Below the pieces are notes generated by a model. It was not told where the DNA came from. It worked only from the letters and a program-made list of their open reading frames with translations, and did no database searches. A DNA stretch of 64,000 nt, taken from positions 496,001-560,000 of the forward strand of contig NZ_CP025003.1 of the NCBI RefSeq assembly GCF_002812485.1. The letters run 5' to 3'. The stretch comes from Dickeya fangzhongdai (GTDB lineage: Bacteria > Pseudomonadota > Gammaproteobacteria > Enterobacterales > Enterobacteriaceae). A program made the position numbers and the translations under genes. Of the stretch, positions 7,490 to 39,993 are shown one piece after another (within the stretch, counting starts at the first letter, position 1; each line of letters opens with the position of its first letter).

Positions 7490-7516
7490 GTACCATGCCG
7501 GGTATGTTCCGGCGTT

Positions 7517-7548
7517 GAGACTGTAGACAAACAGTCTCACTATTTTGT
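7517..7548 (+). terminator. Terminator after acdS
   Basis: GAGACTGT at 7517-7524 pairs perfectly with ACAGTCTC at 7531-7538 around a 6-nt loop and is followed by a T-rich stretch (ACTATTTTGTTAT). It sits 27 bases after the acdS stop. Confidence 0.6.
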
Positions 7549-7617
7549 TATCGTCGATTTATGCCAGAACGGTGCGTAGTTTCGTGCTTGACGGCATTGG
7601 TCATCCCTTGCACCACC

Positions 7618-7642
7618 ACCACACGCACGACAAGGAGAGGCT
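7618..7642 (+). repeat. Intergenic repeat copy B, left fragment
   Basis: Contains CAAGGAGAGGCT, the left arm of the hairpin whose right arm (CGCCGCCTCTCCTTG) is at 8870-8884 on the other side of the insertion sequence. In copy A, read on the minus strand, the arms are CACAGGGAGGC and GCCTCCCTGTG. Confidence 0.75.
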
Positions 7643-7653
7643 TGTATCTTGCT

Positions 7654-7840
7654 CATGTCGTGATTAGCTATCACGACATGAAACAGAGTGAGCTTCGAAG
7701 GAGAGCCAGGGCTATAAACCTTGTGGTTGAGTTTAAGCCCTCTGTTTCACCTTTCACGCCAGCATTAACATTGAACGGTTACCCAGAGCACTGACTCTGA
7801 ATGTACAAGCGGAACGGGCGTGATGGCTTCAGTGAAAGGG
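7654..7840 (+). ncRNA. Predicted bridge RNA of the IS110-family element
   Basis: Three modules can be folded by eye. (1) A 5' hairpin: 7654-7664 with 7670-7680, 11 bp perfect. (2) A target loop: outer stem 7679-7688 with 7740-7749 (10 bp). Its 5' side carries AAGGAGAG (7698-7705), identical to the left chromosomal flank at 7632-7639. Its 3' side carries GTTGAG (7726-7731), complementary to core plus right flank CTCAAC (8864-8869). (3) A donor loop: outer stem 7750-7757 with 7832-7839 (8 bp) and inner hairpin 7784-7788 with 7795-7799. It carries ACGGTTAC (7775-7782), identical to the right end at 8857-8864, and TACAAG (7804-7809), complementary to left end CTTGTA (7641-7646). This is the architecture described for the IS621 bridge RNA. 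Exact 5' and 3' ends are inferred. Confidence 0.82.
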
Positions 7841-7849
7841 GACATCATT

Positions 7850-8839
7850 ATGTATTACGTTGGTATTGATATCAGTAAGCGTTTTGTCGATGTGTGTTTG
7901 TTAGCTGATGGCATGAAAGGTAAACGGAAGACGAAAACGTTACCCAATGGCCCCAACGCCGTTCAGGCTTTGGCTGAATGGCTAACGCGACAAAAATGTG
8001 ACCCGGGTCAGGCCCATATCATCATGGAAGCCACGGGGGTTTATCACGAACACCTCGCTTATGGTCTTCATCAGTCAGGCATTGCCGTATCCGTGATAAA
8101 CCCTCATCGGTTGCGTGAATTCGCCAGGGGAATGGGGATACTCACGAAGACGGATAAAGTGGATGCCTATGTGCTGGCCTGTTATGGCGGTTTGCGCCAA
8201 CCGGAGGGCTGGAGCCCGCCTTCGCCAGAAATAAGGAAACTCAAGGCATTACTCCAGCACAGGGATAGTCTGCTGAGTGATAAACAACGCATAGAAAATC
8301 GGCTGAGCACGTTAGCATCCACACAGGCCCCGGAAGAGGTTGTGGCGTCGCTGGACTCGATGGTGCGGCATGTAAAGAGTGAACTGGAACGTATTGAGCG
8401 ACTGATAGAAGACCACATAGACAAGCATCCTGGACTAAAAAACGACCTGAAGCTCCTGAAATCGATTGATGGTGTTGGCGACCAAATCGGCTGGAATATG
8501 TTAGCCACCATCCGGAGCGGTCACTTCAGGAGCGCGGAGCAGGTGGCGGCGTATCTGGGGGTTATCCCGGTAGAGCGTCGCTCAGGCACCTCGGTACGAG
8601 GCAGAGCCAGGTTGTCGAAAATAGGGCCGCCCGCGATGCGGGCAAAGCTGTATATGGGAGCCATAGCCGCCATCAGTCACAATCGTCATGTAAAAGCGCA
8701 ATACGAGCGACTTTTGCTGAAAGGCAAGGCGAAGATGTTGGCGGTAGGCGCGGCGATGAGGAAACTGGTCCATCTGTGTTATGGCGTGCTGCATACGCAG
8801 CAGCGCTATGACAAGAATTATGGGTTGGTAGTCAGTTGA
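7850..8839 (+). CDS. IS110-family bridge-RNA-guided DNA recombinase (transposase)
   Basis: 329-aa recombinase with an N-terminal RuvC-like DEDD domain and C-terminal Transposase_20 domain. Acidic residues are visible as GID (D7), MEATG (E60) and KTDKVDA (D102 and D105); a long coiled segment spans about residues 125-195. The C-terminal half has SIDGVGDQ followed by AYLGVIP and the serine motif SGTSVRG (about 245-251), which holds the catalytic serine in IS621-type enzymes. ATG 7850 is chosen because it follows AAAGGGGAC and lies just beyond the bridge RNA; the frame stays open to 7820 but that part is RNA. All catalytic positions are intact, so the element looks active. Confidence 0.95.
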   Translation: MYYVGIDISKRFVDVCLLADGMKGKRKTKTLPNGPNAVQALAEWLTRQKCDPGQAHIIMEATGVYHEHLAYGLHQSGIAVSVINPHRLREFARGMGILTKTDKVDAYVLACYGGLRQPEGWSPPSPEIRKLKALLQHRDSLLSDKQRIENRLSTLASTQAPEEVVASLDSMVRHVKSELERIERLIEDHIDKHPGLKNDLKLLKSIDGVGDQIGWNMLATIRSGHFRSAEQVAAYLGVIPVERRSGTSVRGRARLSKIGPPAMRAKLYMGAIAAISHNRHVKAQYERLLLKGKAKMLAVGAAMRKLVHLCYGVLHTQQRYDKNYGLVVS

Positions 8840-8844
8840 AATAC

Positions 8845-8865
8845 TTGACTGGCAACACGGTTACT
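8845..8865 (+). promoter_or_regulatory. Right-end half of a circle-junction promoter
   Basis: TTGACT at 8845-8850 resembles a -35 box. When the right end (through CT at 8865) joins the left end at 7643 in a circle, it lies exactly 17 bp from TATCTT (7645-7650), a 4/6 match to a -10 box, reading into the bridge RNA. In the integrated state the two halves are 1.2 kb apart. This matches known behaviour of IS110-family circles; use as a promoter is inferred. Confidence 0.6.
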
Positions 8866-9107
8866 CAACGCCGCCTCTCCTTGACCACTGGCTGGTGGCT
8901 AAACTGTGCCGCTGACGCGGTTCCTTCGGCATTCGCCTTCGCTATTCGGACCGCCCGTGACGTGTTTACTCGCCCCATCCCTGGGGCTCGCCCTTCGTGC
9001 CAGCGTAAACGCTGTTCAAAAACGTTCCCGACGTTTTTGTCCAACACGGCACGGGCTTGCGCGGCTTCCCTGCCGCGCATCCGGCGAAGTCGTTTGCCTC
9101 AGCACAG
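8864..9107 (+). repeat. Intergenic repeat copy B, right fragment
   Basis: Read on the minus strand, it aligns with copy A at 5001-5168: shared blocks include TGCTGAGG, CGTCACGRGCGG, CCGAAGG then ACCGCG, AGCGGCA and TTTAGCCA. It is about 70 bases longer than copy A because of an extra hairpin-rich segment around 8990-9050, including ACGTTCCCGACGTTTTTG. Several overlapping open frames here (for example 8906-9208) are by-products of the GC-rich palindromes, not genes. Confidence 0.75.
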
Positions 9108-9162
9108 TTTTTAACGCCGGGAAAACCCTTAATCTGGCACTTATAGAATTTGTCAGCACTGT

Positions 9163-39810: not shown

Positions 39811-39993
39811 ATTTCTCTGAGATGTTCGTCAGCGGGCAAGTCCCCTGAGCCGATATTTCAACCAACAGAATGTAACGATCCGTGGTTGGTGAGCATGCTC
39901 GGTTCGACCGAGAAGCCTTAAGACTGCGACGTTGCGTTCACCTTGAACCAAGGGTTCAAGGGTTACAGCCTGCGGCGGCATCTCGGAGATTCC
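39811..39993 (+). ncRNA. ssrS: 6S RNA
   Basis: The 183-nt sequence matches E. coli 6S RNA strongly: it starts ATTTCTCTGAGATGTTCG, has the GTTGGTGAGCATGCTCGG block and CCTTGAACCAAGGGTTCAAG, and ends ATCTCGGAGATTCC, with the closing stem between CTCTGAGAT and ATCTCGGAG. It binds sigma70 RNA polymerase in stationary phase. It is followed 52 bp later by ygfA, as elsewhere. Confidence 0.96.

Follow-up and report, generated by a model that had tools for sequence, protein, structure and literature searches.

Positions 7641-8865 of the window, the 64,000-nt stretch of Dickeya fangzhongdai DNA analysed here, contain a single gene, which encodes a recombinase and lies between non-coding ends (Table 1). 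The protein shares 98% identity with one named Dickeya fangzhongdai. Its Pfam domains PF01548 (91.2 bits) and PF02371 (81.4 bits) both exceed the cut-off, and the features of the IS110 family are present, namely a DEDD RuvC-like N-terminal domain and a Transposase_20 domain in which the alignment places a counterpart of the catalytic serine. The non-coding left end extends for 207 nt upstream of the gene and 24 nt separate the stop codon from the core, a layout that corresponds to the IS110 group. We rejected membership of the IS1111 group, defined by a guide RNA downstream of the gene and long subterminal inverted repeats, as here the right end measures 24 nt and the RNA-like region precedes the gene. 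The CT core is found at both ends and is restored in empty sites (AAGGAGAGG-CT-CA); some repeat copies have TT or CG instead. Because this core is common to 7641-7642 and 8864-8865, the element can be written as 7641-8863 or as 7643-8865. On comparative grounds we consider it very likely (probability about 0.93) that window positions 7641-8865 are an IS110-group insertion sequence whose movement relies on recombination guided by a bridge RNA; this kind of system was published in 2024.

Among proteins of solved structure in the PDB, the only relatives of the recombinase found are those of IS621 and ISCro4 (E about 1e-53). In the alignment with IS621, residues D7, E60, D102, D105 and S245 correspond to D11, E60, D102, D105 and S241, which are required for recombination by IS621 (PMC11208158; this and the other papers cited were available in part).

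Table 1. Coordinates of the element, its predicted RNA and its target repeat (positions in the window)
Feature	Position	Strand	Evidence or remark
IS110-group insertion sequence, right CT core included	7643..8865	+	3 intact copies, 0-2 substitutions
CT core, left copy	7641..7642	+	sole dinucleotide common to both junctions; empty repeats AAGGAGAGG-CT-CA
CT core, right copy	8864..8865	+	
Left donor = right end of IS	8857..8863	+	
IS110-family recombinase, 329 aa	7850..8839	+	Pfam; PDB relatives; residue alignment
5' stem-loop of predicted bridge RNA	7653..7681	+	12-bp perfect inverted repeat; conserved helix
Predicted target-binding loop	7680..7748	+	stem 7680-7688/7740-7748, both-side changes across 15 left ends
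Predicted donor-binding loop	7755..7822	+	conserved stem and inner helix
Left target guide AAGGAGAG, then C7706 opposite target position 7 and C7707 opposite core C	7698..7707	+	covaries with target in relatives
Right target guide GGTTGAG	7725..7731	+	6/7 pair with CTCAAC
Left donor guide ACGGTTAC	7775..7782	+	equals 8857-8864
Right donor guide TACAAG	7804..7809	+	reverse complement of 7641-7646
Target-loop handshake base T, predicted to pair with donor position 7 (A8863)	7732	+	sequence; model from PMC11208158, seen in part
Donor-loop handshake base C, predicted to pair with target position 7 (G7640)	7810	+	42/44 scorable left ends pair here
-10-like TATCTT	7645..7650	+	joined to 8845-8850 box only in circle
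-35-like TTGACT	8845..8850	+	17 bp from TATCTT across circle junction
Dispersed host repeat, about 400 bp without IS, split by IS; approximate ends	7515..9159	+	BLAST; 15-copy alignment, ends by eye
Left arm of repeat hairpin = left target (CAAGGAGAGG)	7631..7640	+	pairs with 8874-8883
Right target and right hairpin arm	8866..8883	+	

A preliminary description of the locus had proposed four guides in the left end, and each was recovered letter for letter. The left target guide (AAGGAGAG, 7698-7705) is identical to 7632-7639 and the left donor guide (ACGGTTAC, 7775-7782) to 8857-8864, while the right target guide (GTTGAG, 7726-7731) and the right donor guide (TACAAG, 7804-7809) are the reverse complements of 8864-8869 and 7641-7646, respectively. 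Their claimed agreement with the order and sense of the IS621 guides also stands, at 28 of 28 letters. Each of the four words is unique within 7643-7849. Guide matching reached a maximum of 24 both in 3,000 dinucleotide shuffles of the left end (mean 19.84) and in 3,000 random CT-anchored end pairs (mean 19.68). When 1,508 nearby pairs of positions sharing a dinucleotide were ranked, the pair 7641/8864 came first with its 28, and the next three scored 25. The left guide lies about 58 bp from the left target, and local copying could yield the match. Even so, the probability that the matches are due to chance, or to a functionless duplication of flanking sequence, seems to us negligible, given four fully matching guides in the correct order and sense, donor guides that are kept in 13 complete copies, and a conserved left-end fold.

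The left end had also been described as folding into a 5' hairpin and two guide loops. The hairpin is a perfect 12-bp inverted repeat (7653-7664/7670-7681). The full arrangement was recovered when 15 left ends were compared (they share 37 pairs, and in 16 of these both sides have changed), whereas the fold of the single sequence beats shuffles only moderately (z -1.98; 7 of 200 shuffles equally good). We therefore base the predicted bridge-RNA structure on what the 15 left ends share rather than on the single-sequence fold. An Rfam scan at the gathering score found no family in the left end; across the window it matched only 6S RNA, the gene for which lies at 39811-39993 (RF00013, 138.8 bits).

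Joining the two ends places TTGACT and TATCTT 17 bp apart, a promoter-like arrangement that is a consensus match only, and the integrated left end contains no such site. An equally good match was found in 99 of 2,000 random 123-bp stretches, so the weight of this putative promoter lies in its location across the junction, as in IS621, where the promoter spans the circle junction (PMC11208158).

The element splits a dispersed host repeat. The right part of this repeat has at least 54 BLAST places in the genome (40 of 53 first-look candidates were scored), and there are at least 26 distinct repeat units. Folded as DNA, an empty repeat copy gives a 37-nt hairpin (z -5.18), and the insertion point is on the loop side of the left arm in the hairpin CAAGGAGAGG-CTCAACGC-CGCCTCTCCTTG. 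In addition to two remnants, the genome carries three intact copies of the IS, whose left ends are identical and which show 0, 1 and 2 substitutions relative to the window. All five insertions occupy one point of the repeat, as seen from both flanks in four cases (L001-L004) and from the right flank only in the fifth (L005). The preliminary description had staked its reading on other copies sitting at matching sites, and they do: all three intact copies are flanked by GGAGAG(G/A)-CT-CA(A/G), and both remnants are in the same repeat. Uninterrupted GGAGAGNCTCA sites number 14 in the genome, versus 2 for the reversed control pattern; nine have G at position 7, seven of which are repeat units, and five have C at position 7, none of them in the repeat.

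In four sister genomes the same gene interval measures 61-74 bp and is without the repeat. Thus, the repeat and the IS arrived there later, and the insertion in the window postdates that split. In a fifth sister genome (L196) a search for the right-hand gene gave no match, and AAGGAGAG is absent from the 600 bp inspected. The absence of the repeat from the interval in the four genomes is also why the repeat itself seems to be mobile and MITE-like. Without the IS, the repeat at 7515-9159 opens with the conserved sequence TTGAGGCTGTTGACAAACAGCC, and its end is partly inverted. We provisionally set aside a RAYT-type source for it, as Y1_Tnp gives four equal-score matches to 171-aa frames that look IS200-type; these genes (L157-L160, at G000:C1:82735, 1430749, 2615333 and 3722752) probably represent an IS200-type element.

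The two remnants differ in form. L004 (G000:C1:1872643-1872695) consists of 53 bp from the left of the IS joined directly to the repeat's right half, and the joint falls at a CT within the element (..GAGCT followed by CAAACG); its left core is TT, not CT, and it is either a 2-bp-homology deletion or the product of miscarried recombination. L005 (G000:C1:3028516-3028565) is a right end of 50 bp, 96% identical, that adjoins an altered right repeat arm. Such remnants, together with the mismatch of the left guide at position 7, could mean that the element formerly worked as proposed but is now inactive in this genome, its copies being relics. We think this unlikely, as three copies differ at 0-2 positions and have an open frame, the catalytic residues align, and the repeat is missing from the same interval in the four sister genomes.

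The match of the left target guide has eight letters and stops one base before the core. It pairs with target positions -1 to 6 and mismatches at 7 and T9, where the IS621 pattern covers positions 1-7 plus the core. A single mismatch, C7706 against G7640, had been pointed out before, and it is real. In IS621 numbering the core forms positions 8-9 and C7706 stands opposite position 7; the mismatch thus falls on the published handshake position. The handshake base is the one that follows the right donor guide, and it pairs with target position 7 following strand exchange (PMC11208158). From 56 left ends we scored the 44 with exactly one ACAAG (11 have none and one has two), and in 42 of these the donor-loop base pairs with position 7 (30 C:G, 11 G:C and 1 T:A, target base first); because the rows are related, they are not 42 independent events. 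The G:C state is found both in this clade and in L077, whose place is elsewhere in a tree of 30 recombinases; L080 has the T:A state. One exception is L002, where position 7 is A, paired by neither C7706 nor C7810, and the right side reads CTCAAAC. The other, L116, is kept among the 44 and is probably not a left end; none was found before its gene. In the element studied here, target position 7 would be matched by the donor-loop handshake base instead of the left target guide.

Relatives with 80-89% DNA identity occur in Dickeya and Pectobacterium, the latter being the genus of G158 as judged by agreement with named loci (L051-L054). Relatives turned up in 2 of the 9 genomes from the genus (its own included), in 17 of the 295 family genomes and in 7 of the 25 from the G158 genus. 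Across them the donor guides are kept and there are four left target guides. The 13 complete copies share the donor guides, the ends and both handshake bases and have the left target guide in three versions; the fourth version is in contig-end pieces. On the right, 13 of 13 flanks read CTCA; the next letter, A or G, pairs or wobbles at the fifth place, and further out differences are tolerated.

Guides and targets change together in these relatives. The test covered the 13 complete copies and three contig-end left ends; left out of scoring were L178 (72% DNA identity), the contig-end right ends L179, L189, L191 and L192, and the fragment L132. Each pair was scored in two registers that differ by one base and the higher value was kept, a rule chosen after the Dickeya copies had been seen; on this basis the 16 insertions (11 distinct guide-target pairs) reached 80, against a mean of 60.7 and a maximum of 79 after permutation (0 of 20,000 permutations reach 80). 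By class, the mean match to a guide's own targets versus those of other classes was 8.00 versus 3.25-6.00 for GAAGGAGAG, 8.75 versus 3.00-6.20 for CGCAGGGCG, 7.33 versus 4.25-6.00 for AAAGGCGCG and just 6.20 versus 4.25-5.75 for AACGGGCGG. The targets of the last class (L133, L177, L182, L186 and L188) fit the sister guide CGCAGGGCG equally (6.20/9 for both). Two observations weigh against the reading: the AACGGGCGG class, which does no better than its sister guide, and L183, which lies outside the repeat. L183 (G308:C5, at a contig end) is a Pectobacterium relative at AAGGCGCAG-CT, still a guide-like site; its partner may be the right flank of L191, also non-repeat.

The hairpin arms differ between the host genera. 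Nine Dickeya genomes have AAGGAGAG(G/A) and near variants, and 12 Pectobacterium genomes have CACGGGGCGG, CACAGGGCGG, CACGGGACGG and variants, the latter retrieved with a pattern that fixed CCGACAC and missed other arms. Between L175 and L187, 5 of the 9 guide bases differ, as against 1 of 81 in the comparable rest of the left end; for the Dickeya element and L175 the counts are 6 of 9 in the guide and 11 of 197 elsewhere in the left end. Change in the guide is therefore much more rapid than in the sequence around it. Beyond this lineage, relatives at about 50% protein identity have guides of their own that match flanks of different sequence. In L056-L060 and L079 a palindrome-like motif of the type TCCGCTATGAGCGAAAAGCGGA lies downstream of the gene; it is either the target or part of the IS.

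Every scored insertion but L183 is in a hairpin, and palindromic repeats serve as targets for five families of IS elements (PMC1525189, in the part available). The recombinase might therefore read the hairpin (palindrome) to choose its target, the match of the left guide being incidental. We regard this as very improbable, in view of the exact eight-letter match, the change of the guide together with the arm sequence in relatives, and the agreement of the approximately 50%-identity relatives with other flanks through their own guides.

Targeting by the left guide leaves a difference in register to be considered. In a gapless alignment to relatives, the target match of the Dickeya guide is one base further from the core, with position 7 unpaired or bulged. 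The offset is present in four intact Dickeya copies (three here and one in G002), and L183 is best matched at the same offset. A guide made for a one-base-shorter repeat (AAGGAGAG-CTCA) was considered but found no support: a pattern search allowing that form returned 0 cases in 9 genomes. A tentative account, which we hold to be more probably wrong than right, is that the left target guide is replaced as a block that follows the host hairpin, with one base of play in the spacing from guide to core, and that the handshake base alone reads position 7. The block might be copied from the target arm, which in the inserted element is about 58 bp distant.

The guides, the ends, the five insertions at one point of the repeat and the guide-target covariation in relatives are read from the sequences themselves; transcription, binding and activity we infer by analogy with IS621. 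In such a cycle, an excised circle would join the right and left ends, and the promoter TTGACT-17-TATCTT formed in this way would drive the left-end RNA. The first loop of the RNA would pair with the host hairpin repeat AAGGAGAG-N-CT-CA and the second with the circle junction ACGGTTA-CT-TGTA, and the recombinase would exchange strands at the CT core. With the donor guides fixed and the left target guide tracking the host hairpin arm, landing would therefore continue in a dispersed, presumably harmless repeat.

The closest counterpart is IS621 of Escherichia coli. Both have a left-end RNA with the target loop before the donor loop, a CT core, left guides in the same sense and right guides antisense, a junction promoter (putative here), a recombinase with DEDD plus Ser, and insertion in dispersed palindromic repeats. 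In contrast, the target is ATCAGGC-CT-AC in IS621 and AAGGAGAG-N-CT-CA here, the recombinase here is a distant match (phmmer 185 bits), the left guide stops short of the core by one base, the right donor guide is a contiguous 6 nt, and the donor-loop handshake base is C here and G there. ISCro4, the second relative of solved structure (9t56), belongs to the same family and was compared by protein sequence only. ISEc11 and ISXne4, from the seekRNA paper, are likewise relatives whose guide RNA has changed to a new target; however, they belong to the IS1111 group, with the RNA downstream of the gene, and they are two elements with 72% protein identity, as against four guide versions at 80-89% DNA identity and one repeat family here (PMC11187229, in part). 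ISPpu9, ISPpu10, ISPa11 and ISRm19 are IS110-family elements with listed copies in extragenic palindromic repeats (PMC1525189, in part); their hosts and repeats are others, and the comparison covers the insertion site.

Published work already covers bridge RNAs and their covariation with targets, the location of 144 of 173 mapped IS621 insertions in REP elements, and target motifs that depart from the guides at zero to two positions (PMC11208160), as well as handshake covariation (PMC11208158), natural reprogramming of an IS1111 element pair (PMC11187229) and IS110-family insertion in palindromic repeats (PMC1525189). The element therefore belongs to a known kind of system. In the available parts of this literature we found no description of a guide series in one lineage that tracks one repeat family, or of the one-base offset. 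A search of titles and abstract openings returned no paper on the element, which is possibly catalogued already in supplementary files or in ISfinder, both outside that search.

Natural acquisition of new targets by IS110 elements has hardly been documented. Here, one lineage has four versions of a guide, with the rest of the element nearly unchanged, and all of them are directed at a single repeat family that varies with the host genus. This lineage makes it possible to test the turnover of guides, the flexibility of the guide-to-core spacing, and the ability of the handshake base to specify position 7 on its own. The element also adds a natural target specificity together with an orthologous recombinase. 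Rather than a new kind of system, it is a tidy natural example of retargeting.
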